Shown here piece after piece: positions 4,701-19,741 of a stretch of DNA of 64,000 bases (positions are counted from its first letter, which is position 1; every line of letters starts with the position of its first letter). This DNA comes from Muribaculaceae bacterium (lineage in GTDB: Bacteria > Bacteroidota > Bacteroidia > Bacteroidales > Muribaculaceae): assembly GCA_022509185.1 (NCBI GenBank), contig JAFLTS010000001.1:124001-188000 (forward strand). The letters run 5' to 3'. The notes below the pieces were generated by a model, which did not search any database, was not told the DNA's origin, and saw only the letters and a program-made list of their open reading frames with translations. The position numbers and the translations under genes were made by a program.

Positions 4701-5541
4701 CAACATAACCAACATACACAGTATGGCTTTGAATCCCCCTTATGCTGAACAAAATACCTTCCCTATACCAGCCTATACAAGTGCTACTGTAACAGTGCGA
4801 GAACAGTCTCTTGCAACTTATAACAGAGAGAATCCTTGGTACAGATTCCAGAACTACCTTACGGTCAGCGGGGCTATATCTCTATCTCATTATAATGTTG
4901 ATATGGCCGGTAATGAAGTATTCCAGCTAGGTGTTTATGGTTCCGAAAATAAAATACTCTGGACTTCTTCAAATCCTTCCGTAGCATATGTAAATGAATG
5001 CGGTCTTATTGTGGCTATGGGTATAACAGGTGCCACAGTGGTAACGGCTCATGTGGATGATGAAGAGATTAATTGTAATGTAACGGTTTCCTCTCCTTAT
5101 CGTGACCCACAAGCTTATACTAGAGCCGGTGAAGAGGATGAAAATCAGCCTGTGGATATCATTATGGAAGGTGTCGGCGGTAACCCGCCTATGGTAAATG
5201 TAAGACTGGTACCTGTCGGTTCAAAGACTATCATTGACTGGTCTTCGTCTAATTCCGATGTGGCATCTGTAAATAATGGTCTTGTAACAGTTTACTCTGA
5301 CGGTGACGTAGATTTCGGTGTGGAAACTGAAAACGGTCTTGAAGATTTTATTGTAGTTGACACCCAGGATATTGATCAATCAGGTATTGAAGAAATATTT
5401 GCCGATGGGGATTGGATGCAGCCAATGAATGTCTATGACCTCTCAGGACGTATCTTATATTTCAATGCAACTCTTGATCAGATCAAAAACCTCGACAAAG
5501 GTCTTTACATCATCAGAGGTAAGAAAGTTTTGATTAAATAA
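1714..5541 (+). CDS. BspA-like leucine-rich-repeat surface protein with Ig-like domains and sorting tail
   Basis: 1,275 residues. A signal peptide (MKKFLSLLLLLYLGLG) is followed by a long run (residues ~50-1010) of ~23-residue LRR_5/BspA-type repeats of the form IGxxAFxxCxxLxxIxxP. Residues ~1050-1120 and ~1150-1225 resemble bacterial Ig-like (Big_2) domains, each with a WTSSNPSVA-type core. The last ~38 residues, starting MNVYDLSGRI, resemble a Por/T9SS-type C-terminal sorting tail. Such proteins are exported to the cell surface and in oral relatives bind host proteins or other bacteria; the ligand here is unknown. The gene looks more AT-rich than its neighbours and contains near-identical adjacent repeats, signs of recent repeat expansion. 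It follows the 1.4-kb RNA with no obvious promoter of its own. Confidence 0.85.
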   Translation: MKKFLSLLLLLYLGLGIQMEAGLTVGSQFCPNKYGYGLRYEVISENPAQVKVYGAYMFNETIIAIPETVDYEGIKYTVTEIGDSFYNQLYHGLYNINKDEITSITLPNTIVSIGNNAFSDFSSVSNINLPESLLNLGSGAFSSCSSLNSINIPASVTSIGAGCFADCSSLQSIIIPNAIQVIEENTFYSCSSLTSVTLPKFSVTIKEGAFSNCSSLSEIIFPENEVIIDTFAFYETTGLRNLEIHANKCIIRNEAIIWCSGLTTIDISGSEIFLDTSAFGGASNLTSFSIEGSKIIIEGQAFNQCENLISLSIKGTEAQINNGAFNGCPLQSVYLDYPEIIEYSFNDLETLTSLNLGENVKSIGAYAFMGCKNLTSIEIPEQVTYLGVSSFAGCTNVNNLILGNSLQQIDALAFSWCDNLTSLILPDKVSLINNEAFRECTSLSSISFPESLITIGYEAFSGCSSLSSISFPESLLTIGNGAFRECSGLSSVTIPGEQTSVEYGAFEGCTSLASFSIMGSETVINDHALKGCPIETLKIGCQEIPNELFSDFSTLKSVTFGESVKTIGAGSFYNCSIKSLELPSSVTSIGYGAFDSNPISFLSLPKSLKSIGNGAFDSCPIQTLEVNTELESSDFISLDNLISVVFGNDITTIPSFSGASKLVNVTLPKYLLNLPDYAFSNCVSLKTIELPESLETIGKSAFSNTALSNLNLPSGIEIISDYLFTDCKNIESFQIPINITSIGNGAFSGTSLTEINFPSSLNTIGNNSFANTKITEITLPQTLTSIGYGAFTDCPVETLTILTNAPVNGVFSYDHLTTAIFGEDVTSIPSFSGAANLTTVTLPETLENIPELGFLNCISLQTLQLPEYLSSIGTGCFSGCTSLNTIRLPENVKNIPAYAFVNCENLEKVYFSDNIESFGMNAFQNCGKLRSLVIPEGVKEIPNGMLQGCASISEILIPNSVISIGENAFQGCSSLVNVDLGTGMYSIGDFAFAECNNITNIHSMALNPPYAEQNTFPIPAYTSATVTVREQSLATYNRENPWYRFQNYLTVSGAISLSHYNVDMAGNEVFQLGVYGSENKILWTSSNPSVAYVNECGLIVAMGITGATVVTAHVDDEEINCNVTVSSPYRDPQAYTRAGEEDENQPVDIIMEGVGGNPPMVNVRLVPVGSKTIIDWSSSNSDVASVNNGLVTVYSDGDVDFGVETENGLEDFIVVDTQDIDQSGIEEIFADGDWMQPMNVYDLSGRILYFNATLDQIKNLDKGLYIIRGKKVLIK

Positions 5542-5934: not shown

Positions 5935-7479
5935 TTATTTATTCCAGTCAGAAAAGCTGTATACTGACTCTATAGAATTCTCTACATTGTCCGGAAGAGC
6001 CGGGAAGAAGTCATATCCTGTCAATGCTTCAAGATCATCTATACTCATGGCATAAGAATCCATGCTGTCGGGTGCAAGAGCATTGGGATAAACAAAGGCT
6101 ATGGCTCTCGGTTCTTTATTTTCCCTGTAATATAAGAAAGCCTTAAAGAAAGCACTGGGAACCCTCACCTGTGAAGCCCCTATCCTCTGTTGGTCGTCTT
6201 CTGAATAAATAGGGCCAGCTATAATCCAGATCGCTCCGTCACGTTTTGCCCAGCTTCTTTCCTTACTTTCCAAAGTTGCCCAAGCTTTTTCATTAATGTC
6301 TGCCTTTTGTGGACACATGTTAGCCATTACAAAACAATCTGCCATTGCCTGACTACTCCATTTCTGGTCGGCTGCAGGACACATATGGCCTCTTTGATAA
6401 CCGGTTGTATTATAAGCATAATCTTTGGTAGGACATCCCTCAAGCGAAGAGTCGGTCCAGAAATCATAATCGTTTCTGTCTTCACTTCCATTAGTCTCAG
6501 TTGAAAGCAACTCCCATGCTACATAATTAGGTGTCTTATTGTCTTTGTTGAAATTAACTGTAAAGCCTGTATATTCCTTAACCTGCTGAGCCACTCCATC
6601 AGGAAGCTTTACATAAGAGAGTGGAAACTGATAATCACCGGGCACTGCATCATATTCAGTCTGGCTGCCTGAACCGGATTCTTCTCCCAAAGTTTCATAA
6701 TCAGTCACTACAATATTAAAATATTTTGTAGTCGACCCTGATATGCCTGTGAAATATCCTGTTAACTTATAAGAAACACCATCTTTTAATTCAGCCTTCA
6801 AAGCATCTGTAGGATAGGAAACACTTCCTGCAGTCTCAGCTCCGGCTATCTCCACATTAATATAATTTCCACTGAATATCAGACTACCTTCTAACGTCAC
6901 ATAAGTGCTTAATACATATTCCGTGTCGGCTGCTGCAGCATCAACCATTGCTGCTGTATAATTTACCGGTTGTGGATAAGTGTATTCCTCTACTCCGGCT
7001 ATGCTGATGGCCGCTGAAGAATCTAGCTGAAGACCGGTACCGAAATTGGCAACTTTACCTGATGCTTCAACTATTGTACCGATCGGGAAAGAATTCAGAT
7101 CTATACTCTGATTATAAACATATATAGAACCGCCATTGTCTGTGATTACAAGGCCTCTGGCATTCACTGCTGTCACAACTGCAGTTGTTGTAAGTTCATC
7201 CCCTACTGTTAGATTCTTTATATTATCAGTTATTTCAGTCGTAATATCCGGGTTTTGCTCCCCTTCGTCTCCTTCATTTCCTTCATCACCTTCGTTACCC
7301 TCATCTCCTTCATTGCCTTCATCGCCGTTGTCTTCTCCGGCACCTCCGTTTACACTGTTGTCAAAATAAGGTTCATCATAATCCTTTACACAGGAGTTAA
7401 GAGATAGTAAAGATGTGCTTCCAAGCAAAACAAGCACAAGGAAAGAACTGATAAAATTAAATTTTGGAATTCGTATCAT
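5935..7479 (-). CDS. Surface lipoprotein: OB-fold module plus DNA/RNA non-specific endonuclease
   Basis: 514 residues. The N-terminus is a lipoprotein signal ending at a Cys in LSLNSCVKDYDEP; the acidic residues after it resemble a Bacteroidota surface-export signal. Next come an Asp/Glu-Gly-Asn repeat linker, a ~190-residue OB-fold-like module (from ITDNIKNLTVGDEL) and a C-terminal NUC domain (~residues 290-500). The active site reads YQRGHMCPAAD: the family's DRGH is QRGH here, but the general-base His (H365) and the metal-site Asn in DINEKAW (N396) are kept. The family cleaves both DNA and RNA with a divalent metal. The OB module is strongly similar to one in the lipoprotein at 10532. The gene diverges from the TonB receptor, so a joint role in degrading extracellular nucleic acid is a reasonable inference. 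Confidence 0.87.
   Translation of the reverse strand: MIRIPKFNFISSFLVLVLLGSTSLLSLNSCVKDYDEPYFDNSVNGGAGEDNGDEGNEGDEGNEGDEGNEGDEGEQNPDITTEITDNIKNLTVGDELTTTAVVTAVNARGLVITDNGGSIYVYNQSIDLNSFPIGTIVEASGKVANFGTGLQLDSSAAISIAGVEEYTYPQPVNYTAAMVDAAAADTEYVLSTYVTLEGSLIFSGNYINVEIAGAETAGSVSYPTDALKAELKDGVSYKLTGYFTGISGSTTKYFNIVVTDYETLGEESGSGSQTEYDAVPGDYQFPLSYVKLPDGVAQQVKEYTGFTVNFNKDNKTPNYVAWELLSTETNGSEDRNDYDFWTDSSLEGCPTKDYAYNTTGYQRGHMCPAADQKWSSQAMADCFVMANMCPQKADINEKAWATLESKERSWAKRDGAIWIIAGPIYSEDDQQRIGASQVRVPSAFFKAFLYYRENKEPRAIAFVYPNALAPDSMDSYAMSIDDLEALTGYDFFPALPDNVENSIESVYSFSDWNK
7261..7326 (-). repeat. Degenerate 9/18-bp tandem repeat coding the acidic linker
   Basis: Repeated units like CCTTCATCTCCTTCGTTG (plus strand) encode alternating Gly-Asp-Glu and Gly-Asn-Glu in the nuclease linker. 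Units differ at third positions. Copy number could vary by slippage without a frameshift because the unit length is a multiple of three. Confidence 0.7.
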
Positions 7480-7515
7480 ATATCATAAGAAATTTTTTCA
7501 CTATAACAATAAACG

Positions 7516-7523
7516 CAAATATA
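7516..7523 (-). promoter_or_regulatory. -7 box for the nuclease gene
   Basis: TATATTTG on the minus strand, 37 nt upstream of the nuclease ATG, followed by a C as is common here. No clear -33 TTG is visible. Confidence 0.5.
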
Positions 7524-7605
7524 ATTAAAAAATTTTAGTACGATTAATATATGATAAAATTGATATTAAGAAATTTTAAGGTTATTTTGTTAAAATTGAA
7601 CCAAG

Positions 7606-7637
7606 CTTTGGTGGATTGTAAAAAAAATTTAACTTTG
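7606..7637 (+). promoter_or_regulatory. Promoter of the TonB receptor operon
   Basis: TTG at 7608-7610 and TAACTTTG at 7630-7637 are separated by 19 nt. This predicts a leader of about 90 nt before the ATG at 7731. Confidence 0.7.
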
Positions 7638-7730
7638 CACTTTAGGAAAAACACGCATTTTATAATTGTTTCTGCTTTTAATCCGCTAATTTAATAATTA
7701 CCAAATACATTTCAATTAAACAACCAGATT

Positions 7731-10505
7731 ATGAAGAGATTGTTTCTCGTAGCCCTGGTAATACTCAGCATGGTAGGTCTGGCTGCTGCCCAGTCTAAGA
7801 CTATGACTTGCCGGGGTCTTGTGATCGATGAATTAGGAGAGCCGGTTGTGGGAGCTACCGTACAGGTAGTCGGTTCCACTACTGCCACACCCACTGACAT
7901 CGATGGTAAATTCTCACTCAAAGTTCCGGAAAATACCAAGGAACTTCAGATCAGCTATATCGGATACAAAACAGTAACTCTAAAAGCTGCTCCTGAAATG
8001 GGTGAAATAAAACTTCAACCGGACTCAAAGATGCTTCAAGACGTCGTAGTGACTTCTTCGATAGCTAAGACTCGTGAAACCCCTGTGGCGATTTCAGAAA
8101 TCACAGCCCAGGATATAGAGGTGAAACTGGGCGATAAGGAGCTTCCGGAACTGCTCAACACTACTCCGGGTGTTTGGGCCACTCCGGAAGGTGGAGGCCA
8201 TGGCGATGCTAAAATCAATATGCGTGGTTTCAAAGCTCCCAATGTAGCTGTACTTATTAATGGTATCCCTATGAACGACATGGAATGGGGAGGTGTTTAC
8301 TGGTCAAACTTCGGACATTTGCCCAATGTCACATCAAATGTTCAGACTCAGAGAGGTCTTGGAGCTGCAATTATTTCCACTCCTTCAATCGGTGGTACAA
8401 TTGCTTACACTACCAAAGGTCTTGATGCCAAGAAAGGCGGTTCTATTTGGTATGGTACCGGCAACGACGGACTTAATAACGTTGGAATGACTCTATCAAC
8501 CGGTCTCATGAAAAACGGATGGGCCCTTACAGTGATGGGTGGCCGCAGATGGGCCAACGGTTATATACAAGGAACACAATACGATGAATGGAGCTGGTTT
8601 GTAAACGTTACTAAGAAATTGGGTGACAAAAACCAGATAGCACTTACAGCCTTTGGTGCTCCTCAATGGCACAACCAGCGCTCCAGTGCGAATCTTCTTA
8701 TCAGTGAATGGCAGAACGTAGCTAATTATATGGGTAATGAATCAGCTTACCGATACAACCCCATTTTTGGTTATGACAACGAAGGACAACAACGCACTAC
8801 AGCAAGAAATCAGTTCCATAAACCTATAATTTCATTAAACCATATCTGGCAGATTAACGAATATTCTTCGCTCTCAACTGCATTATATGTTTCTCTTGCC
8901 AATGGTTTCGGTTATTCCGGTCAAGGTCGTCCACTTGATGTAAATAGTCCGAACGGCACAAACTGGCGTACTGCTTGGTATGGAACAGATGGTTATGGTA
9001 AACTTAACTGGGAATACCACGGACTTACAACAAGGCGTCCTGACGGCACTTTTGACTATGGTTCAATTCAGGATATGAATGCTGCTTCAGCCACCGGTTC
9101 AAATATGGTGATGGCAGGTAGTAACAACAACCATCAATGGTATGGATTGATATCAACTTACAAAAACGAAATTTTGCCCAACCGCCTCACAATCACCGCA
9201 GGTATCGATATGAGGTATTATATCGGTCATCACTTCAACAAGATTATTGATCTTTATAGTGGTGAATATTTTATCGATGATTCCAGCCGTGGAGGTTCAT
9301 CCATGATGAAAGAAAACAATTATTTAGCCGGCAACCCTGATTTTATCTATCAGAAACTTGGTGTAGGTGATATTGTTTATCGTAATTATTATGGTTTTGC
9401 AAACCAGGAAGGTATCTATGGTCAGGCTGAGGGAAAATATCTTGACGGTAGAATCACTACAATCATAGCCGGATCTTTAAATGTTACCACATATCAAAGA
9501 AAAGATAAATTCTATTATGATGCCGAACATGCTTGGTCGCCCAAGAAAACCTATCTGGGTGGTACTATTAAGGGAGGTATCAACTGGAATATCGACCGTC
9601 ATAACAACATCTTTGCAAATGGTGGGTATATATCAAAAGCTCCATTCTTCTCAAACGGTGTCTTTGTTTCATCTGACGTGAGCAACGCAATGAACCCTAA
9701 ATCTTTTAATGAAAAGATTGCTTCCGTTGAGGTGGGCTATAGCTATCATTCTCCTAAATTTACTATGACCTTAAACGGATATTACACCGTATGGATGGAC
9801 CAGACGAACCGTAACACCCAACGTTCGGTTTATATCAGCAGAGGTGAAAATGCAGGCGAGCGTTACACAGTCAACCTTGAAAACGTTGCTGCTATCCATA
9901 AGGGTGCGGAAATGAACTTTACTTATCTTCCAACCAACTGGTTTGAATTAAACGGTATGATTTCATGGGGTGACTGGAAATGGGGAAATAATGTAATCGG
10001 TTACTTCTACAATAGCCAGGGCCAGCCTCTTGCCGACCTCGAGGGAAATGTGGCTTCAGAAATGTTCGGTCCCGATCATATCTGGGTTAGAGTGAAACAA
10101 AAAGGAGTGCATATCGGTGGTTCAGCTCAAACCACCGGAATGCTCGGTGTAACATTCCGTCCTTTCAAGGGATTCCGTATCGGTGCTGACTGGTTGCTCA
10201 ACGCACGCAACTATTCCGATTATGCTCTCTCCGGAAGTGCTCTCAGTAGCAATGTAAATAGCACCATCACCGTGATGGAACCTTGGGAAATTCCATTTGG
10301 AAACGAACTTAACCTTAACGTGAGCTATAACTTTAAAATCGGTGGAGTTAATGCTACGGTTTATGGAAACGTAAACAACCTTCTCAATAATTACTATATC
10401 AAAGATGCCAATACAAATTATAATGAGAGGGGTGCTTGGGATAATGCTTGGGTTTATTATTCATTCGGAAGAACCTTCACAGTTCGTTTAAAGATTAATT
10501 TCTAA
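7731..10505 (+). CDS. SusC-like TonB-dependent outer-membrane receptor
   Basis: 924 residues. A signal peptide (MKRLFLVALVILSMVGLAAAQ) precedes a carboxypeptidase-regulatory-like (CarbopepD_reg_2) domain at ~25-105, with GEPVVGATVQVVGS near its start. A TonB plug follows at ~115-230 (GFKAPNVAVLINGIPMND), then a ~690-residue beta-barrel ending in an aromatic-terminated strand (FTVRLKINF). Such receptors import bulky ligands across the outer membrane using TonB energy. It is shorter than most polysaccharide SusC proteins, and the next gene, 26 nt downstream, is not a SusD homologue but an OB-fold lipoprotein. The nuclease lies divergently upstream. I infer uptake of nucleic-acid fragments, nucleotides or a co-liberated nutrient; the ligand is not shown by the sequence. 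Confidence 0.9.
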   Translation: MKRLFLVALVILSMVGLAAAQSKTMTCRGLVIDELGEPVVGATVQVVGSTTATPTDIDGKFSLKVPENTKELQISYIGYKTVTLKAAPEMGEIKLQPDSKMLQDVVVTSSIAKTRETPVAISEITAQDIEVKLGDKELPELLNTTPGVWATPEGGGHGDAKINMRGFKAPNVAVLINGIPMNDMEWGGVYWSNFGHLPNVTSNVQTQRGLGAAIISTPSIGGTIAYTTKGLDAKKGGSIWYGTGNDGLNNVGMTLSTGLMKNGWALTVMGGRRWANGYIQGTQYDEWSWFVNVTKKLGDKNQIALTAFGAPQWHNQRSSANLLISEWQNVANYMGNESAYRYNPIFGYDNEGQQRTTARNQFHKPIISLNHIWQINEYSSLSTALYVSLANGFGYSGQGRPLDVNSPNGTNWRTAWYGTDGYGKLNWEYHGLTTRRPDGTFDYGSIQDMNAASATGSNMVMAGSNNNHQWYGLISTYKNEILPNRLTITAGIDMRYYIGHHFNKIIDLYSGEYFIDDSSRGGSSMMKENNYLAGNPDFIYQKLGVGDIVYRNYYGFANQEGIYGQAEGKYLDGRITTIIAGSLNVTTYQRKDKFYYDAEHAWSPKKTYLGGTIKGGINWNIDRHNNIFANGGYISKAPFFSNGVFVSSDVSNAMNPKSFNEKIASVEVGYSYHSPKFTMTLNGYYTVWMDQTNRNTQRSVYISRGENAGERYTVNLENVAAIHKGAEMNFTYLPTNWFELNGMISWGDWKWGNNVIGYFYNSQGQPLADLEGNVASEMFGPDHIWVRVKQKGVHIGGSAQTTGMLGVTFRPFKGFRIGADWLLNARNYSDYALSGSALSSNVNSTITVMEPWEIPFGNELNLNVSYNFKIGGVNATVYGNVNNLLNNYYIKDANTNYNERGAWDNAWVYYSFGRTFTVRLKINF

Positions 10506-10531
10506 CCCTTCACCAATAATAAGGATTCAAT

Positions 10532-13015
10532 ATGAAATTTAAATATATAAAATCATTGGCCCTGGTTTGTGGAGCTGTTGCAATTACAAGCTGCACTGAA
10601 AATTCCTGGAACAATACTTTTTTAGACGATTTCGAATCCGGACCCGCTTATTCGGCTCCGGTCACCGTTGAATATCTGTTCACCAAGGATGATTACAACA
10701 CGCTTGGGGGAATGCTCTATAATATGTCTCAAACCGACGAGGAAAAGGCCGCTGCAAACAGCATAAGGAATAACTTGTTTTTCGATGAATCAAGTCCATA
10801 TCCTGCCGAAACAGCAATCCCCTATTTCCTTAATAATGAGCAATCAAATTTTTACATCTATAATAACGGATCTAAGGTACAGATAGCAGTGGCTGTAGCT
10901 CAAGGAGTTCCCGAAGAACTTACAGCTATCACCAAGGCTCCTCGTGTGTTTTTTAACTCACCTACTTCCGAGAGCCAGGCTGTTAATGCTCTAAACACTC
11001 TTTATCCGGCAGCTGCTGAAGGTGATTATGCTATAATTTCCTATGAAAATGCAGCTGCTTACACTGTTCCGGCTAAAACATCTAATCAGAAATTGACTTA
11101 CACCCGTACCTCTTCCTCAAGAGCGGATGAAGTATGGACTGTTTCAGAAGCTTTGGCTCAATTGGCAGGGGGATATACGGGACCCGGCACTGTTAAAGGT
11201 GTGATAACTAATGTTAAAAGTTTTAATGCCTCTTATGGTGAAATTGACTATTATATTGCAGACCAACCTGGAGGAGAGGAACTTTATGTCTATGGTGGAT
11301 TAGGACTTAATGGAGAAAAATTTACTTCGTTAGACGACCTATCTACGGGAGTTACAGTGGTGGTATCAGGCGACTTGAAAACTTATAACGGTACTCCTGA
11401 ATTCAATTATGGTAGCAAAATCCTCAGTATGGATGGTAATGGAAACGGTGGAAATGGAGGAGCCGGAGGTGGTGATGATAACACTGGTGATGATGAACCG
11501 GGTAATGACAATCCGTCAACCGGAGAACTTACAGACAATATCAAGAATCTGGCCGTGGGTAGCAGTCTCACAGCTACTGCAGTGGTTACCGCACAGACTT
11601 CAAGAGGAGTGATACTTACCGATAACGGAGGATCTATCCTTTATTATAACACGGGTATTGATCTTAGTAAATATCCTATCGGTACAGTTGTTAAAGTGTC
11701 TGGTGAAGTAAGCGCTTACAATCAAGGTCTTCAACTTACTGATCAGGCTGTAATAACCGTAGACGGAACAATGTCTTACACCTATCCTACGCCTGTTGAT
11801 TATACGGGTGCTATGGTTGATGAAGCTTGCGCTACATCCGGAGATTTCCTGGCCAAGTATATATCGGTTAAAGGAAAAGTGGTTTACTCTGGATCTTATA
11901 TTAATGTAGAGATTAGCGGGGCAACTGCTCAAGGTAGTGTTTATTACGCTACAGATGCAATCAAGGCTAAACTGACTGACGGTTTGACTTATAATCTCAA
12001 GGGATACTTTATGGCCGTGAGTGGCACAGGAACTAAATATTTCAACATCATTGTGACAGATGCCGAACAAACCACTGCTGATTTCAACGAAGAAAACGGT
12101 GTAAACATCATTTATGTTTATCAGGATGGTAAATGGGCGCCTGCAAAGAATGCTACAACAGTTGAGACTTCTGCTTATGCAGAAATGGGATTTGATGTAA
12201 ATAAGCTCAGTGAGCCCGCTAAATACCTTCCTAATTATATGAAACAGGCATTCCCGTATGCTTTGCCAAACACCGAAATGTTTGTGGCATATAATTTTGG
12301 TGCAGGAAGAAGTTGCAGCCTGTTGCTTTTTGATGGAAATAACTGGACTGTAAACGACAATTACTTGGAAAACAAAGTTGGTGAATTCGTAAAAAACAAC
12401 GGCACTTATACTTTCAGAAAATGGATTGGTGAGGAAGTCTTCCTGTTGTATAACCAGCCCCAGATTGCTATGAACTGTGGATACCTGATCGTGTATGGCA
12501 ATATCTGCGCTAATCCGGTTCCGGAAAGTAATTCATATGGCTACCTTGAAATTACTGACGTTGAAATTGATACCGACTCCAATTCCATAATTATGCCTAA
12601 CGGTGATAATACCTTTATGTTCATGACTTCAGCTGAATATAACGGTAATACTTACTATACTCCGGAAGGCACATTTGTGATTCTGGACTCAAACGGCAGA
12701 TATATGTATTGCAAGGAATCATACAATAACTTCAATGTAAGAGCTGATAATCCTTATATTGAGAATGACGGTTCGATTTCCGATCAATATCTGTTTACAG
12801 CAACATTGAATGAAGACGGAACCTGGACAATTAAGAATGTTCATGATTATAACGGAACTCCTGTTGACCGAGTGATCTGCTACTCTGAAAGCGCAACTTA
12901 TAAGGACTTTGCTGCATATGCAGAAGCTGACCTTGAAACAAGAGGTGCTAAGTTACCGGTACTTTATATTTCAGAAGAAACAATGCCGGATACAAACGGT
13001 GCTTCAGCTGAATAA
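10532..13015 (+). CDS. OB-fold repeat lipoprotein partnering the TonB receptor
   Basis: 827 residues. A lipoprotein signal ends at the Cys of VAITSCTEN. The regions are: an unassigned N-terminal domain (~30-190), a VSEAL-type OB-fold module (~205-300), a Gly/Asn/Asp linker, a ~190-residue module from LTDNIKNLAVGSSL that is nearly the same as that in the nuclease lipoprotein, and an unassigned C-terminal domain (~520-827). OB folds commonly bind single-stranded nucleic acid or oligosaccharide. Its place directly after a SusC-like receptor is where SusD usually sits, so I infer a surface capture protein. A strong terminator ends the two-gene operon. The exact family name is not certain; Pfam DUF5689 or DUF6359 are possibilities. 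Confidence 0.75.
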   Translation: MKFKYIKSLALVCGAVAITSCTENSWNNTFLDDFESGPAYSAPVTVEYLFTKDDYNTLGGMLYNMSQTDEEKAAANSIRNNLFFDESSPYPAETAIPYFLNNEQSNFYIYNNGSKVQIAVAVAQGVPEELTAITKAPRVFFNSPTSESQAVNALNTLYPAAAEGDYAIISYENAAAYTVPAKTSNQKLTYTRTSSSRADEVWTVSEALAQLAGGYTGPGTVKGVITNVKSFNASYGEIDYYIADQPGGEELYVYGGLGLNGEKFTSLDDLSTGVTVVVSGDLKTYNGTPEFNYGSKILSMDGNGNGGNGGAGGGDDNTGDDEPGNDNPSTGELTDNIKNLAVGSSLTATAVVTAQTSRGVILTDNGGSILYYNTGIDLSKYPIGTVVKVSGEVSAYNQGLQLTDQAVITVDGTMSYTYPTPVDYTGAMVDEACATSGDFLAKYISVKGKVVYSGSYINVEISGATAQGSVYYATDAIKAKLTDGLTYNLKGYFMAVSGTGTKYFNIIVTDAEQTTADFNEENGVNIIYVYQDGKWAPAKNATTVETSAYAEMGFDVNKLSEPAKYLPNYMKQAFPYALPNTEMFVAYNFGAGRSCSLLLFDGNNWTVNDNYLENKVGEFVKNNGTYTFRKWIGEEVFLLYNQPQIAMNCGYLIVYGNICANPVPESNSYGYLEITDVEIDTDSNSIIMPNGDNTFMFMTSAEYNGNTYYTPEGTFVILDSNGRYMYCKESYNNFNVRADNPYIENDGSISDQYLFTATLNEDGTWTIKNVHDYNGTPVDRVICYSESATYKDFAAYAEADLETRGAKLPVLYISEETMPDTNGASAE

Positions 13016-13032
13016 TAAGGAAAAATAATACA

Positions 13033-13070
13033 AGAAGGTGTGCCGTAAATCCGACACACCTTCTGATTTT
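13033..13070 (+). terminator. Terminator of the TonB receptor operon
   Basis: A 10-bp stem AGAAGGTGTG (13033-13042) with CACACCTTCT (13055-13064) is followed by GATTTTAATTT. Confidence 0.8.
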
Positions 13071-13131
13071 AATTTATCATAAATTAAGGAAAATAACGAG
13101 GTTTCGGCTTCTTATATTTCTTAAAAAAAGG

Positions 13132-13139
13132 TATATTTG
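13132..13139 (+). promoter_or_regulatory. -7 box for the OB-fold protein at 13174
   Basis: TATATTTG followed by C, 34 nt before the ATG. The sequence upstream has an AAAATAACG stretch also found before the paralogue at 15868. Confidence 0.65.
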
Positions 13140-13173
13140 CAATCAAACATAATCTAACCAAATTTTTAATCAC

Positions 13174-15729
13174 ATGAAAAAATTTTTACTAACCTTAGCG
13201 ACTTTGTTCGGGCTTGGAATGACAGCTTCAGCAGGTATAGCTAATTTCACATTCAGTGAAAATGGTTATGAAAATTCTGAGGACGTAACGGAAGTAGTCT
13301 CAGCACCAATAACCATTAATTTCGACCAAGGTGATGGCCTTAATGCTCCTAAATATTACACTTCAGGAACTGCCATTCGCGCTTATTATGGTAACACTAT
13401 CACAGTGACTTCAAGCTCCGAGGTTATTACTCAAATTGTAATTAACTTTGGAAGCGGTGATGGTAATAATATAATTACAGCAAATACTGGATCCTATGAA
13501 AATGGCATCTGGTCAGGTGAAGCTTCTACCGTAACATTTAATATTGGTTTGAATCTTGACGATAAGACAAGTGGAAACCGAAGATTAGCCGGTTTTGAAG
13601 TTACTTATGGTGAAACAGCAACTCCTCCGGTAGTAACTCCGAAACCAGAAGTACCCACGGGTGTTATTACAGTAGCTCAAGCTCTTCAATATCTTAATGA
13701 TGGAGGTGAGGCTGCTACTGTGCAAGTGAAGGGTTATATTACAAAAGTAACATCATTTAATTCAAAATATTATTCTATAACTTATTATATAGGTGACACA
13801 GCCGATGCTCCTGATGCAGAAACTCTGCAAGTATACAGTGGCAAAGGTTTAAATGGAGCAGATTTCTCTTCTCAAGATGATTTAGCCGTTGGTGCTTTAG
13901 TAACTGTTGAAGGTTCCCTTTTCTTATATAATGGAAACACTCCAGAAATTAATCAGAATAGCAAAATTCTAAGCTATCTGGGTCCTAATGGTGAAACTGA
14001 ACCGGGATCGCCTGAAGTTGATACTCCACAATTTACAGTAGCCGAAGCTATCGCTTGGCTTGAAGCAGGAAACGAGGGTAAAGCAACTGTTACCGGTTAT
14101 GTTACAAGTATTGATGAAATAGACACTGGTTCATATGGTAATGCAACTTATTATCTTGGTGATGCCGTAGATGCCACTACTACTCTTGAAGTATATAGAG
14201 GTTATGGTCTTGATGGCGCTAAGTTCACAGACGAAAATCAACTTTTAGTAGGTGCTTTTGTTAAGGTTTCAGGTAATTTAATTACGTTCACAGACGGTAC
14301 CTTGGAATTTACTTCCGGAAGCAAGATTCTTGAATATACTGCTCCTGCCGGTGGCGAAAATCCTCCAACTGAAGAACAACCTACCACACCTCCTACTCCT
14401 GAAGATGGACAACCTGTAACTTTCGATTTCACTCAATTCACTTATGGTATTGAAGGCCAGGTAGCGGGTGAAAATAATGATAACTTTATAACTACCATCC
14501 CGGCTGTTATGACTTATGGTGACGTTACCATAACTCTTAATGCCACAAATGAAGAAGGTAATAAATGGCGTTTCTGGAATGATGGTCTCCGTGCTTATAC
14601 AGCCGGCGCACCTTATTTCACAGTTGCTACTACAAACAATGAAAACATTACTGCCATTACATGGACTCTGAAAAATTCCAACATTTATATCACAGAACAA
14701 GGTTCTACAACTCCTATCACTGTTTGGACTGGTGATGCGGCTTCAGTTACTTTAGTACCCGTTAATACAGAAAATAACAATGCAATAGTTTCTATTACCG
14801 TTTATTATGGTGATATGATTTATACTCCGGAACCGGAACCTGAAACTCCGGAATTTACGGTGGCTGAAGCACTCGAATATCTTGCAGACGGAAACTCTGG
14901 CACTGCTATCGTTTCAGGTATTGTAAGTCAGGTAACTAACTTTAATTCTAACTATGGTTCAATTACCTATTATATCGTAGACGACCTTGAAGATGAAGAT
15001 GCTCTGCAGATTTATGGCGGTTTAGGGCTTGATGGCGCTAAATTCACAGCTCTTACCGATCTCCCGGTTGGTTCTAAAGTTCAGGTTAAAGGCTCTTTGA
15101 AGAATTATACCAATTCAGCAGGTGAAACTAATCCGGAAATGGATCTTAACAGTGTAATCCTCACACTTGTATTCCCGGATGACTATGTAGAACCTGAAAT
15201 TCCGGCTGCTCCGGAAGGTGTGCTTTCAGTAAAAGAGGCTGTCGAAGACTATATCATGAAAGGGTACACCGGAAATGCAATAGTTAAAGGCGTAATTTCT
15301 AAAGTTACCAATTTCTATGAAAACTATGGCCAGATCGACTATTACATCACTGATGCCAATGGAACAGTGGAAATGATGGTTTATCAAGGATTAGGATTGA
15401 ACGGTGATAAATTTACATCTCTCGATAACCTTGAAGTAGGTGCTGAAGTTGAAATTGAAGGTAACATTAAACTATATAACGCAACTCCCGAGTTTGACAG
15501 AAACAGCAAGATCTTGAAATACACTGCCCCAACTACTGGTGGTGAAGGTGAAGGTGGCGAAGGCGGCGAAGGAGAAGGCGGCGGCACTACCGGCATTAAC
15601 TCTATCAATGCTGACCTTTCAAATGCTCAAATCTTCACTCTCCAAGGTGTACGTGTTAACAATCCTGCCAAGGGTGGTATCTATATTATCCGCCAAGGAG
15701 ACAAGACTTATAAAATGGTAATCCGTTAA
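13174..15729 (+). CDS. Secreted multi-OB-fold protein with C-terminal sorting tail
   Basis: 851 residues. A signal peptide (MKKFLLTLATLFGLGMTASA) is followed by a beta-rich region, then four copies of a ~95-residue module starting ITVAQALQYL, FTVAEAIAWL, FTVAEALEYL and LSVKEAVEDY. Each contains a Y(G/S)xxxYYI..D core, a GLGLxGxxF turn and a final NSKIL-like strand, as expected for an OB fold. Another beta-sandwich-like segment separates copies 2 and 3. A Gly/Glu-rich linker leads to a tail reading IFTLQGVRVNNPAKGGIYII, typical of Por/T9SS-type sorting signals. I infer a multivalent surface or secreted binder with the same ligand class as the 10532 lipoprotein. It has its own promoter and terminator. 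Confidence 0.78.
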   Translation: MKKFLLTLATLFGLGMTASAGIANFTFSENGYENSEDVTEVVSAPITINFDQGDGLNAPKYYTSGTAIRAYYGNTITVTSSSEVITQIVINFGSGDGNNIITANTGSYENGIWSGEASTVTFNIGLNLDDKTSGNRRLAGFEVTYGETATPPVVTPKPEVPTGVITVAQALQYLNDGGEAATVQVKGYITKVTSFNSKYYSITYYIGDTADAPDAETLQVYSGKGLNGADFSSQDDLAVGALVTVEGSLFLYNGNTPEINQNSKILSYLGPNGETEPGSPEVDTPQFTVAEAIAWLEAGNEGKATVTGYVTSIDEIDTGSYGNATYYLGDAVDATTTLEVYRGYGLDGAKFTDENQLLVGAFVKVSGNLITFTDGTLEFTSGSKILEYTAPAGGENPPTEEQPTTPPTPEDGQPVTFDFTQFTYGIEGQVAGENNDNFITTIPAVMTYGDVTITLNATNEEGNKWRFWNDGLRAYTAGAPYFTVATTNNENITAITWTLKNSNIYITEQGSTTPITVWTGDAASVTLVPVNTENNNAIVSITVYYGDMIYTPEPEPETPEFTVAEALEYLADGNSGTAIVSGIVSQVTNFNSNYGSITYYIVDDLEDEDALQIYGGLGLDGAKFTALTDLPVGSKVQVKGSLKNYTNSAGETNPEMDLNSVILTLVFPDDYVEPEIPAAPEGVLSVKEAVEDYIMKGYTGNAIVKGVISKVTNFYENYGQIDYYITDANGTVEMMVYQGLGLNGDKFTSLDNLEVGAEVEIEGNIKLYNATPEFDRNSKILKYTAPTTGGEGEGGEGGEGEGGGTTGINSINADLSNAQIFTLQGVRVNNPAKGGIYIIRQGDKTYKMVIR

Positions 15730-15753
15730 TCCCTTTTATAATCTAATAATACG

Positions 15754-15785
15754 GAGGGTGTGAAAATTCACACCCTCTTTCTTTA
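15754..15785 (+). terminator. Terminator after the OB-fold protein
   Basis: An 11-bp stem GAGGGTGTGAA/TTCACACCCTC (15754-15764 with 15767-15777) is followed by TTTCTTTA. Confidence 0.85.
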
Positions 15786-15834
15786 TTTATCCTAATTTGG
15801 ATTTTGATTATTTCCAAAGACAAAGAAAATAACG

Positions 15835-15842
15835 TAAATTTG
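15835..15842 (+). promoter_or_regulatory. -7 box for the OB-fold protein at 15868
   Basis: TAAATTTG followed by C, 25 nt before the first start codon. No convincing -33 TTG at the right spacing. Confidence 0.55.
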
Positions 15843-15867
15843 CATCAGAATAACCAATTAATTTAAT

Positions 15868-17382
15868 ATGCTTATGAAAAAACTTTTACTCTCAATCGCC
15901 ACTCTGGCACTCGGATTCACAGCTTACGCCGGTGAAGTTACTTTCGACTTCACAGCTGAAAATGCTGCTCAAACATATGGGTTCCCTCCTTATAGTGTAA
16001 ATGAAGCCACGGGTGAAGGCCAGGCTGATTATATCACAGTACCCAAAGAAATCACTTCAGGTCCGGTTGTTATCATTCTTGAAGGAAAGGAAACTACTGA
16101 CAATTCAGGTGCGTGGCGTATCTGGAATGATGGTCTTCGTCAATATAAATCTCAAAACGCTCAGTTTACTGTAACTACAAATAATGGTGAAAAAATTACA
16201 GGTGTTACATGGACTGTAAGCTCAAACGACGTTTCTTTCGCCGAAGAAGGTACTGAAGAAAATATTACCGCTTGGACCGGAGAATCTGAAGGCGTTACTT
16301 TCGTTTCTACTTCTACTAAAAATAATGGAGTGAAAACTATTACCGTTACCTACGGTGACACCTCTCTTGAAATTCCTACTCTTCCCGAACCATCTGCAGA
16401 TGTTATCGACGTAGCTGAAGCTCTCGAACTCATAGAAGCCGGATATACCGGTGAGGCAACTGTCGAAGGAGTTATTATTGAGATTACTGAGGTGGAAACC
16501 GCTCAATACGGAAACGCAACTTACACAATTGCTGATAACGCTACTGATACCGAAGGCCTTAAAATCTTCAGAGGATACTGGCTTGGTGGTGCTAAATTCA
16601 CTTCTGAAGATCAGTTGGAAGTTGGTGCTGAAGTTATCGTGAAAGGTTCTCTCATGAACTATCAGAACACTACCCCGGAAATGGCACAAGGTAACGTGAT
16701 CCTTTCTTATAATGGTGAAACAGCTCAGGAACCAGAACCTGTTGAAGGTATAATTTACAACGAACCTTTCTCAACAGGGTTAGGTGAATTCACTATAGTA
16801 GACGATGAACTCCCTGAAGCACTTACTTATGTTTGGTCTTTCGACTCACAATATGGTGCTAAAGCATCAGCTTATGCCAACAGCATGTGCTATGCAGCTG
16901 AAGCTTGGTTAGTTTCTCCCGCTATTGATCTAGAAGGTTATTCAAACGTAACTTTGAGCTTATCACACGCTATTAATAAAGCCAACGGTGAGCCCGTTAC
17001 TGATTTCTGCAATGTTTATGTTGGAGAGGCAGGAACTGAGCCTTCAACCGAATGGACCAACATCTCTTCTGAAATAGAATGGCCGGCCGGTGATAATTGG
17101 ACTTTCGTAGATGTAGAAGGTGTTTCTTTAGCTGCTTTCGAAGGTAAGAAAATCCAGGTTGGTTTCCTTTATTCTTCAACAGCAGAAGTGGCCCCAACAT
17201 GGGAAATAAAGAATTTCCTTGTTGCCGGTGATGCTGACAATGGTGCAGTTGAAGGTATTGATGCTGACATCAATGCTCCGGTTTACTTCTACAATCTCCA
17301 GGGTATGAAAGTTAACAATCCTGAAAATGGAATCTTTATCCGTCGCCAGGGTAGCAAGACTACAAAAGTGATTATCCGTTAA
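15868..17382 (+). CDS. Secreted OB-fold protein with adhesin-like domain and sorting tail
   Basis: 504 residues from ATG 15868; an ATG two codons later (15874, MKKLLLSIATLALGF) is an equally good start. After the signal peptide comes a beta region (~20-165) related to the middle segment of the 13174 protein (shared WRxWNDGLR motif), one VAEAL-type OB module (~175-275), and a domain at ~290-445 resembling cleaved-adhesin/choice-of-anchor domains (AWLVSPAIDLEGYSNVTLS). The tail VYFYNLQGMKVNNPENGIFI closely matches the 13174 tail. It is probably delivered to the surface or medium with that protein. Function is inferred from modules and location only. Confidence 0.75.
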   Translation: MLMKKLLLSIATLALGFTAYAGEVTFDFTAENAAQTYGFPPYSVNEATGEGQADYITVPKEITSGPVVIILEGKETTDNSGAWRIWNDGLRQYKSQNAQFTVTTNNGEKITGVTWTVSSNDVSFAEEGTEENITAWTGESEGVTFVSTSTKNNGVKTITVTYGDTSLEIPTLPEPSADVIDVAEALELIEAGYTGEATVEGVIIEITEVETAQYGNATYTIADNATDTEGLKIFRGYWLGGAKFTSEDQLEVGAEVIVKGSLMNYQNTTPEMAQGNVILSYNGETAQEPEPVEGIIYNEPFSTGLGEFTIVDDELPEALTYVWSFDSQYGAKASAYANSMCYAAEAWLVSPAIDLEGYSNVTLSLSHAINKANGEPVTDFCNVYVGEAGTEPSTEWTNISSEIEWPAGDNWTFVDVEGVSLAAFEGKKIQVGFLYSSTAEVAPTWEIKNFLVAGDADNGAVEGIDADINAPVYFYNLQGMKVNNPENGIFIRRQGSKTTKVIIR

Positions 17383-17459: not shown

Positions 17460-17912
17460 TCAGAAACCGAAATAGGCATTGATGGCTGCCAGCAATTGGT
17501 CACGATCCTGGAAACCGATTATAGTATCCTGAATCTGTCCGTCTTTATTCAGAAAGACCATCATAGGAATGCTTTGAACTCCATAAGCCTGTGATAATTC
17601 AGGATTTTCATCCACATCTATTGTTACAAATGAAATCCTCCCTCTGAAGTCTTCCGCCAATTTTTCAAATATTGGCTTCAACTGACGGCATGGCGGGCAC
17701 CAGGTGGCAGAGAAATCCACTATCATCGGCTTTCCGTCTGTAGGTATGATCCTCCCCTCCTCTATCTTGTAACGAGGAATTTCTACTACCTCATTAGGTG
17801 TCATTTCCACTCTTTCCACATCAGGAATGGCTTCCTTTTCCTTATTCTCTCCTTTACATGAAAAACACAAACCGGAAACAAGCACCAATGCGCATAAAAC
17901 CACTTTTTTCAT
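17460..17912 (-). CDS. Thioredoxin-fold lipoprotein
   Basis: 150 residues. A short signal ends at a plausible lipid-attachment Cys (LCFSC, C19). Residues ~50-150 are a thioredoxin fold with the redox motif ATWCPPCRQ (C72, C75) and the cis-proline loop QSIPMMVFL. Such periplasmic proteins reduce or exchange disulfides, for example during cytochrome maturation or protein folding. CPPC in place of CGPC suggests a disulfide reductase or TlpA-like role but does not decide it. It is a single gene converging on the OB-fold block. Confidence 0.85.
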   Translation of the reverse strand: MKKVVLCALVLVSGLCFSCKGENKEKEAIPDVERVEMTPNEVVEIPRYKIEEGRIIPTDGKPMIVDFSATWCPPCRQLKPIFEKLAEDFRGRISFVTIDVDENPELSQAYGVQSIPMMVFLNKDGQIQDTIIGFQDRDQLLAAINAYFGF

Positions 17913-18082
17913 ATCTTGCGTCTTTTAATTAATATTCTGTCTTGAATAATGAACTTAAGATTTATATATTTTAAGAATTCCCTATGTTATAATATGATAA
18001 CAAAAAATGAGCCGGGAAGTTAATCCCGGCCCATAATTTTATTTAATTTAAATTCTTTACTCTTTGTTCTAAATCCTATATC

Positions 18083-19741
18083 TTAATTTATATCCTTGTC
18101 ATGTTCAAGAAGAAGTGTCATCGACGGACGGTCGCAAATCTCTGCAGGACCGAAATACTGAATCGGACCGGGATATTGATACAAGGTATTGAGTGCCAAG
18201 GTTTCCCTCATTGATGCAAACTTGAGATAAGGTTTGCCGTTAAGGTTTACCAACGCCTTTTGTATCACAGGTTTCATGTGGCCATGACGTTTTTCCATAT
18301 TCATAAGCATAGTGATTGGAATTCCTCCTGCTATCCAGTCTTCGCTCTTCTCAGTAAGATTTCTCACTGAACTCATATATCCTGTGAGTCCGGCATTTAT
18401 CAGCATAGCTGCATTGAATCCAAGAGCATAAGTATAATCTGCGTCAAAATTGGTAGGATCAGCGCATCGGCCTTCGTATCCGAAGAAGTGATGCTGGGCG
18501 TTAAACTTACCTGAGTATTCTCCTGACTCCTTCATTTCGTCAAGTCTCTTGGCTACCATTTCACTCAGAAGACTTTCTGTCTCGATAAGTGATACCTGAA
18601 CATTACCATGACTGTCACGGTCAAGACTCAGTTGGAGGGCGATATGCTTCGGAAGAGATTTATAAAGGTCGGCATTAACCGGTGTAAGGTATGAATGGAT
18701 CTTACGTAGTTTGTCCATTTCATCTAGTCCCTCCATTTCTGAAGAATGTTCAGCAAGTACATCGTTAAGCTCCGAAATTAAAGCCTTCATTGAAGGAATA
18801 AATTCTATAAGGCCTTCAGGAACAAGCACTGTACCGAAATTCCATCCCAATTTAGCCCTCTCGGTAATTACATAACAAAGGTAGCTTACGATATTATCCA
18901 GTGTCATTCTCTTGGCAAGCACCTCTTCAGATATCAGACATACATTGGGTTGTGTCTCCAAAGCACATTCGAGAGCTATATGAGATGCGCTGCGGCCCAT
19001 CAGTTTGATAAAGTGATAATATTTCTTGGCTGAGTTACAGTCTCTCTGGATATTACCAATTACTTCACTGTAAACCTTGCATGCGGTATCGAAACCGAAT
19101 GATGTTTCAATCCATTTATTTTTCAGGTCTCCGTCTATAGTCTTGGGAACTCCTATCACTTGCACACCGGCTCCGATATTCTGATAATATTCAGCCAAGA
19201 CCGCTGCATTTGTATTCGAATCGTCTCCACCTATAATAACTAATGCCTTGATATTAAGTTCTTTCAAGATCTTCAGACCCCGTTCAAACTGTTCCGGAGT
19301 TTCGAGTTTTGTACGTCCCGAACCAATGATATCAAAACCACCTGTATTACGGTATTCTTTTATATATCCTGCAGTAAGTTCCATATACTGATGGTTTATG
19401 AAACCTGAAGGACCCATCAGGAAGCCATAAAGACGATTCTCTTTATTAAGACGTTTCAAACCGTCGAAAATACCACTTACAACATTATGACCACCGGGTG
19501 CCTGTCCTCCTGAGAGTATGATTCCTACGTTAAACGGTTCTTCCACATGTTCAGGTTCTTCAGATGATTCAAACTGAACTATCGGCAAACCGTAAGTATG
19601 AGGGAAAAGTTTCTTTATTTCCTCCTGGTCTGCCACTGATTCTGTGGCCTCACCTATTCTTACTTTTACAGGACCTTGCAAGGCTTTCGGAAGCTTTGGC
19701 TGATATTCCGACCTTACTCTCTGAAGGGCACTCTTTTTCAT
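18083..19741 (-). CDS. pfp: PPi-dependent 6-phosphofructokinase
   Basis: 552 residues, matching the long PPi-PFK class. It transfers phosphate from pyrophosphate to fructose 6-phosphate, reversibly, in glycolysis and gluconeogenesis in the cytoplasm. Visible motifs are GIILSGGQAPGGHN (~73-86), GGDDSNTNAA (~171-180) and PKTIDGDLKN (~199-208). The second Asp in GGDD and the Lys in PKTIDGD mark PPi use; ATP enzymes have GGDGS. A -7 box lies 37 nt upstream of the ATG. The gene ends in an AT-rich gap before the thioredoxin gene. Confidence 0.96.
   Translation of the reverse strand: MKKSALQRVRSEYQPKLPKALQGPVKVRIGEATESVADQEEIKKLFPHTYGLPIVQFESSEEPEHVEEPFNVGIILSGGQAPGGHNVVSGIFDGLKRLNKENRLYGFLMGPSGFINHQYMELTAGYIKEYRNTGGFDIIGSGRTKLETPEQFERGLKILKELNIKALVIIGGDDSNTNAAVLAEYYQNIGAGVQVIGVPKTIDGDLKNKWIETSFGFDTACKVYSEVIGNIQRDCNSAKKYYHFIKLMGRSASHIALECALETQPNVCLISEEVLAKRMTLDNIVSYLCYVITERAKLGWNFGTVLVPEGLIEFIPSMKALISELNDVLAEHSSEMEGLDEMDKLRKIHSYLTPVNADLYKSLPKHIALQLSLDRDSHGNVQVSLIETESLLSEMVAKRLDEMKESGEYSGKFNAQHHFFGYEGRCADPTNFDADYTYALGFNAAMLINAGLTGYMSSVRNLTEKSEDWIAGGIPITMLMNMEKRHGHMKPVIQKALVNLNGKPYLKFASMRETLALNTLYQYPGPIQYFGPAEICDRPSMTLLLEHDKDIN

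Follow-up and report, generated by a model that had tools for sequence, protein, structure and literature searches.

What does a TonB-dependent receptor take in when its neighbors are a nuclease and a series of OB-fold proteins? The question is raised by positions 5935-17382 of a 64,000-nucleotide window, the whole stretch of DNA analyzed here, which spans positions 124001-188000 of contig JAFLTS010000001.1 (C1 of genome G000, assembly GCA_022509185.1, 88% complete) from a Muribaculaceae bacterium. A first-pass annotation, made from the sequence alone, had proposed a cut-bind-import scheme for extracellular nucleic acid around a SusC-like receptor that lacks SusD. Our results suggest that the locus probably serves outer-membrane scavenging of nucleic acids through a dedicated receptor family. 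The scheme gains from unrelated nucleases that recur beside this receptor family, from HIN-200-like OB folds and from the published transformation phenotype of a pair of the sister clade's type; against this, conservation does not extend to the strict gene set, and the receptor scores below the SusC family cut-off.

Gene content and predicted folds of the locus

The open reading frames of the window place a nuclease lipoprotein gene divergent from a receptor gene, which is followed on its own strand by genes for a lipoprotein and two secreted proteins (Table 1), the five genes and the order first annotated. In agreement with that annotation, a Pfam scan of the five proteins gave no match to a SusD homolog, a glycoside hydrolase or any other carbohydrate-active enzyme.

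The receptor matches the CarbopepD_reg and Plug families (PF07715, E 5.1e-16). In its AlphaFold model (mean predicted local distance difference test score 85.2, predicted template-modeling score 0.80) the Plug domain lies within a beta barrel, the arrangement of a TonB-dependent transporter, and Foldseek matched the model to the classical transporters PqqU (E 1e-39), FhuA (E 1e-36) and FecA, with no SusC among the best 50 matches. The description of the receptor as SusC-like did not survive comparison with TIGR04056 (SusC/RagA), against which it scored 114.9 bits for a cut-off of 368, over residues 26-183 only; SusC/RagA identity was therefore rejected.

The gene after the receptor encodes, as annotated, an OB-fold lipoprotein with no SusD match. 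Its PF01336 (OB) match falls below the cut-off (5.4e-4), and the fold is assigned from a predicted structure whose best Foldseek matches in the PDB are the tandem OB folds of HIN-200 proteins, which bind double-stranded DNA. At E <= 0.001 there are 43 matching chains, of which 34 are HIN-200 chains (some of them presumptively so), and the others include RPA, RADX and baculovirus LEF-3; comparison with nucleic-acid-binding OB folds had been proposed in the first-pass annotation. Foldseek gives no residue ranges, and the position of the HIN-200 matches, approximately residues 345-513, is our own placement. The top two rows (5z7d and 4gop) are multi-domain alignments with root-mean-square deviations near 28-31, and the VIA-align rows cover the beta-trefoil part only, with no bearing on the OB region.

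Two module types recur in these proteins, in keeping with the earlier claim that the nuclease and the binding proteins have modules in common. Type B, of about 190 amino acids, occurs in the nuclease and in the lipoprotein at 56% identity, while type A, of about 100 amino acids, has a single copy each in the lipoprotein and the second secreted protein and four copies in the first. A small tree of type B modules (with the SH-like approximate likelihood ratio test, SH-aLRT, as its sole support) requires two or more switches between nuclease and lipoprotein, which suggests repeated gain or exchange of the module. The two type B modules of the window fall in one weakly supported group (SH-aLRT 89), and those of the nucleases at loci L003 and L004 (L-numbers label the receptor regions compared, G-numbers the genomes) group with other lipoproteins of the subclade.

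The nuclease carries a PF01223 domain (E 2.5e-48), a family whose relatives include EXOG and other nucleases. DNA/RNA non-specific endonucleases have the motif DRGH; here it reads YQRGH, with the histidine kept and the aspartate replaced by glutamine (6394-6396, reverse strand), a position held by glutamate in several close relatives and by aspartate in more distant ones. Such homologs are widespread in the genus: 54 of its 61 genomes gave a match, which in G019 came from the OB module alone. Contig C10 of G000 bears a second copy, standing alone. At L005:5809-9330 two tandem nuclease genes follow the lipoprotein gene; with the contig broken off 346 bases upstream of the receptor, there may also be a divergent copy.

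In the first secreted protein PF01336 scores above cut-off (E 2.3e-11). The sorting tails annotated on both secreted proteins matched no tail model, though the two tails resemble each other over 56 amino acids and the genome encodes SprA, the type IX secretion system (T9SS) translocon. The divergent gap between nuclease and receptor measures 251 bases and holds two candidates for the Bacteroidota -7 consensus, TAnnTTTG, a form that by eye is kept at the receptor-facing TAACTTTG box in five of six aligned relatives.

The large protein encoded just upstream of the nuclease, at 1714-5541, has BspA-type leucine-rich repeats, matches Big_2 and gives a weak T9SS tail match below the cut-off. Downstream, 17460-19741 encodes a thioredoxin-like protein and a phosphofructokinase that several relatives (L002, L006-L009, L017) retain next to the locus; the site is therefore syntenic even where no nuclease adjoins.

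Table 1. Features of the locus in window coordinates.
Feature	Position	Strand	Basis
Nuclease lipoprotein: signal peptide and LNSC lipobox (by eye), OB module, Endonuclease_NS domain	5935..7479	-	PF01223; motif YQRGH
Endonuclease_NS catalytic domain, residues 287-497	5989..6621	-	family scan
OB module of nuclease (type B), residues 71-262	6694..7269	-	fold taken from identity to lipoprotein residues 322-512
Candidate -7 box, TAnnTTTG, facing nuclease	7516..7523	-	Bacteroidota consensus
Candidate -7 box, TAACTTTG, facing receptor	7630..7637	+	
TonB-dependent receptor, 924 aa, clade B: CarbopepD_reg domain, plug, transporter-type barrel	7731..10505	+	family scans, model, Foldseek, tree
OB-fold surface lipoprotein, 827 aa, lipobox ITSC	10532..13015	+	sequence, model, Foldseek
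Type A module of lipoprotein, residues 201-298	11132..11425	+	module comparison; low-confidence model
Type B tandem OB region of lipoprotein, residues 322-512, likely source of HIN-200/RPA matches	11495..12067	+	model, Foldseek, module comparison
C-terminal beta-trefoil of lipoprotein, residues 636-821	12437..12994	+	VIA-align
Secreted protein: four type A OB modules, T9SS-like tail	13174..15729	+	family scan, module comparison
Type A module, copy 1	13663..13974	+	module comparison
Type A module, copy 2	14002..14373	+	module comparison
Type A module, copy 3	14854..15168	+	module comparison
Type A module, copy 4, best PF01336 match	15220..15516	+	family scan, module comparison
T9SS-like tail, alike to tail of next gene	15562..15726	+	tail comparison; no tail-model match
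Secreted protein: one type A module, choice-of-anchor J domain, T9SS-like tail	15868..17382	+	family scans, module comparison
Type A module of second secreted protein	16411..16716	+	module comparison
Choice-of-anchor J domain, NF038128	16756..17220	+	49.6 bits, cut-off 30

Conservation of the receptor pair and recurrence of nucleases

Of 101 relatives, 50 have the receptor at E <= 1e-60, with 33 of these 50 among the 61 genomes of the window's genus, and a profile search detected its family in 161 of 295 class genomes at E <= 1e-80. In a named Bacteroidales set (33 non-redundant loci of 36, from Muribaculaceae to Bacteroides luti and B. ilei) the lipoprotein gene follows the receptor at 32 loci, 30 of them detected by hidden Markov model (HMM) and L003 and L020 by BLAST; the one miss is cut by a contig end. 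One of four nuclease families lies within 6 kb of the receptor at 7 of the 33 loci, five of these in the window's subclade, and secreted type A module proteins are found at L002-L004 only, as far as the flanks reach. Receptor and lipoprotein are therefore the constant core, and the nuclease and secreted proteins are local additions that mark one subclade. Conservation of gene order thus holds for the pair, and not for the strict gene set: only 4 of 21 well-flanked named Bacteroidales loci have one of the four nuclease families within 6 kb.

Across the class, the four nuclease or nucleotidase families occur within 6 kb at 22 of 34 well-flanked loci, whereas the 32 control loci, around other Plug receptors of these genomes, have none (Fisher p 3e-9, a value that, like the other nuclease-count p values, is rough because the loci are related). 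Because the four HMMs were built from nucleases first seen next to these receptors, they favor those families, and any other family is counted in neither set. Forty class regions were hand-picked among the matches listed, before their own context was read, and 34 were kept after one duplicate and five short-flanked regions were dropped; the controls, one hand-picked Plug match per genome among the matches listed (37 of 39 genomes, G232 twice), numbered 32 of 38 after six short-flanked regions were dropped, as were two 2-base placeholder regions (L220, L221). By set, a nuclease lies within this distance at 13 of 15 order-wide loci around G370, which include Weeksellaceae, 3 of 12 loci from relatives in the window's order and 4 of 21 named Bacteroidales loci; the sets are not independent, and the order-wide loci (20, L164-L183, 15 with enough flank) were chosen for their spread once the earlier contexts had been seen.

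The families involved, Endonuclease_NS, Exo_endo_phos_3, Endonuclease_1 and 5'-nucleotidase, vary by lineage. With loci that hold two families counted under one, their distribution on the receptor tree needs at least 12 gains or losses for Exo_endo_phos_3, 6 for 5'-nucleotidase, 5 for Endonuclease_1 and 3 for Endonuclease_NS. Exo_endo_phos_3 stands after the lipoprotein in B. ilei (L036) and divergently upstream at L092; Endonuclease_1 is found at L091, and together with 5'-nucleotidase at L074, while L123 and L124 combine Exo_endo_phos_3 (by its own HMM) with Endonuclease_NS. At L146-L148, L151, L152 and L155 a clade B receptor (see below) is followed by a secreted-type Endonuclease_1 protein, often with an upstream protein that begins near C-ELFISEYVEG and is lamin-tail-like by eye. 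At L121, in a genome of about 2.1 Mb, a recA-like gene (by eye) lies upstream of a receptor of this family.

These observations bear on the possibility that the locus acquires glycans or glycoconjugates, its OB, beta-trefoil and choice-of-anchor J domains binding carbohydrate and its nuclease being a chance neighbor. The recurrence of unrelated nucleases at loci of this family and at none of the controls argues against this, as do the lack of SusD and glycoside hydrolase matches in the five proteins, the HIN-200/RPA matches of the lipoprotein model and the likeness of the nuclease module to that of the lipoprotein; we regard glycan acquisition as quite unlikely.

Two receptor clades and a possible role in natural transformation

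A quick IQ-TREE phylogeny of 121 receptors, with SH-aLRT as its only support and four long-branched control receptors as its root, divides the family into two clades, A with 43 rows and B with 74 rows including the window's receptor, each with an SH-aLRT of 100. The nuclease association is stronger in the sister clade, where a nuclease lies within 6 kb at 33 of 38 loci and a lipoprotein downstream at 35 of 38, than in clade B, where the counts are 13 of 48 (one-sided p 6e-4 against the controls) and 28 of 48. At L175, L176, L180 and L182 receptors of both clades share one locus with a single Exo_endo_phos_3 gene.

Markerless deletion of either RA0C_RS04915 or RA0C_RS04920 is reported to abolish natural transformation in Riemerella anatipestifer; the former is a predicted outer-membrane protein with pfam13620, with homologs only in Flavobacteriaceae by the authors' own search, and the adjacent latter is a DUF5689/DUF5017 protein (PMC8459023). 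R. anatipestifer belongs to the Weeksellaceae, whose receptors of this family fall in clade A, and by this analogy the transformation phenotype is most likely one of the sister clade. Orthology of the window's receptor to the Riemerella receptor, first read from shared architecture, was rejected by the tree. At the Weeksellaceae locus L172 the receptor, 97% identical to a Marnyiella aurantia protein, matches PF13620 above cut-off but gives no Plug match at E <= 1, and the lipoprotein has a strong DUF5689 match with DUF5017 below cut-off; relatives of L172 carry NCBI names such as 'carboxypeptidase regulatory-like domain-containing protein [Chryseobacterium]'. Riemerella's own pair is not among the best 120 of 2920 protein matches, the named ones being mostly from Chryseobacterium and Kaistella.

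The lipoproteins of the two clades are connected as well. In eight Bacteroidales lipoproteins that carry a choice-of-anchor J region, hhalign found similarity to the DUF5017 part of those from clade A (probability 99.9%, E 3.5e-35), which supports a shared ancestral partner. On profile comparison the tie is this DUF5017/choice-of-anchor J domain and not one between OB module and DUF5689; the latter equation is unsupported (hhalign 25%), and PF18942 (DUF5689) has no match in the locus proteins or in G000.

Could the window's pair then be the outer-membrane DNA entry of natural transformation, as proposed for R. anatipestifer, with DNA passing on to ComEC? The deletion phenotypes favor this, as does the Riemerella-type architecture of Weeksellaceae members such as L172. 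In addition, TonBA and TonBB are needed for normal transformation in R. anatipestifer, where mutants of either transform poorly, an effect that for TonBB the authors ascribe to iron (PMC8383284). Removal of phosphate is reported to raise transformation in R. columbina (PMC7965970) and to lower it in R. anatipestifer (PMC8383284). The window's genome has a ComEC homolog, but ComEC is near-universal (34 of 41 genomes) and its co-occurrence is therefore uninformative. The Weeksellaceae and window receptors, in clades A and B, are moreover deep paralogs. The 88% complete G000 gave no family match to HHH_3 (PF12836) or DUF1343, and among the matches listed for the 101 relatives, down to E 6e-7, no HHH_3 in a frame of 200-430 amino acids came from the window's genus, while other families of the order have them; on these searches the genus seems to lack the helix-hairpin-helix protein needed for Riemerella transformation. 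As this protein seems to be missing and a surface nuclease would destroy donor DNA, a role in transformation is weakened for the window's organism, and we consider it unlikely.

Taken together, these results suggest an idea that we offer tentatively, judging it somewhat short of an even chance: an ancient Bacteroidota family of TonB receptors for nucleic acids may comprise two sister clades. Clade A, with DUF5689/DUF5017 lipoproteins and an Exo_endo_phos_3 nuclease, would pass DNA across the outer membrane for transformation via the receptor instead of the usual uptake pilus, and clade B, that of the window, would use it as food by means of lipoproteins with OB or choice-of-anchor J domains and whichever nuclease has been recruited; in some Flavobacteriales-type genomes both stand close together with one nuclease gene.

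Probable nucleic-acid scavenging and known systems

In the scavenging scheme, extracellular DNA or RNA would be cut by the surface nuclease, a tethered lipoprotein that would hold its substrate by its own OB module. The lipoprotein, with its tandem OB folds and beta-trefoil, would catch nucleic acid at the mouth of the receptor, taking the part that SusD plays for SusC, and the receptor would take in oligonucleotides, nucleotides or nucleosides with TonB energy. The imported material may serve as a source of phosphate, carbon or nitrogen, and the two T9SS-type OB proteins may supply extra surface binding. Nucleic-acid binding, surface location, TonB-driven import and a nutritional purpose are what we infer for the locus. 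For the window's organism scavenging fits better than transformation because of the surface nuclease, the module common to cutter and binder, and the 5'-nucleotidases and Endonuclease_1 proteins beside other clade B receptors. In Flavobacterium johnsoniae, phosphate depletion raises two Endonuclease_1 nucleases and one or more TonB-dependent transporters at other loci, with no link to this receptor family stated in the extract (PMC8115612).

Several observations weigh against scavenging. No nuclease of the four families adjoins the receptor at 17 of 21 well-flanked named Bacteroidales loci and at 35 of 48 clade B loci, and stand-alone homologs of the nuclease are common in the genus, so that the one adjoining the receptor may be there by local chance. 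The motif of this putatively active nuclease has glutamine where distant members have aspartate. The HIN-200 matches have 6-13% identity and modest template-modeling scores, the model of the lipoprotein's type A module is of low confidence, and the comparison of OB modules with DUF5689 yielded the low probability given above. OB folds also bind sugars and proteins, the beta-trefoil is a fold common among lectins, and this domain and choice-of-anchor J could bind glycans.

Alternatively, the binding of nucleic acid might serve adhesion, biofilm or defense, by holding or cutting extracellular DNA or degrading neutrophil extracellular traps or phage DNA, while the receptor imports something unrelated. 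The repeated surface OB modules suggest an adhesive coat, and the nuclease looks by eye like a lipoprotein. The lipoprotein's constant partner is, however, a TonB receptor, which points to import, and 5'-nucleotidases near some clade B receptors point to catabolism; such a role is accordingly judged improbable.

How DNA crosses the outer membrane in Bacteroidota, and whether gut commensals eat nucleic acids, are little explored. Context, predicted fold and the published phenotype of a same-architecture pair tie an orphan receptor family, present in over half of the class genomes searched, to nucleic acids, and DNA uptake in another bacterium appears, by analogy, to depend on a sister branch of it; both questions become testable in tractable commensals.

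The gene set had been called undescribed. Among the open-licence PubMed Central papers listed in searches for a locus of this kind, the Riemerella papers and PMC8115612 alone had a bearing on it, and the claim needs qualifying because the sister-clade architecture was described in Riemerella in 2021. That pair likewise sets an outer-membrane protein with a carboxypeptidase-regulatory domain next to a DUF5689/DUF5017 protein (PMC8459023), and a DUF5017-type domain is common to the eight Bacteroidales lipoproteins and those of clade A. Its architecture, compared by description and not by its sequences, is that of clade A, whereas the window's lipoprotein combines OB modules with a beta-trefoil and its nuclease is of the Endonuclease_NS and not the Exo_endo_phos_3 type. 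SusCD polysaccharide loci and PusCD phosphate systems follow the same logic of TonB receptor, surface lipoprotein and hydrolase (PMC8115612); the locus differs in a receptor below the SusC cut-off, no SusD and a nuclease as hydrolase. Tandem OB folds are likewise found in HIN-200 proteins (IFI16, AIM2) and RPA, to which the predicted structure bears a resemblance of fold alone, at the low identities given above. In pairs of the BtuB-BtuG type, as at this locus, a classical TonB-dependent transporter has a lipoprotein partner other than SusD.

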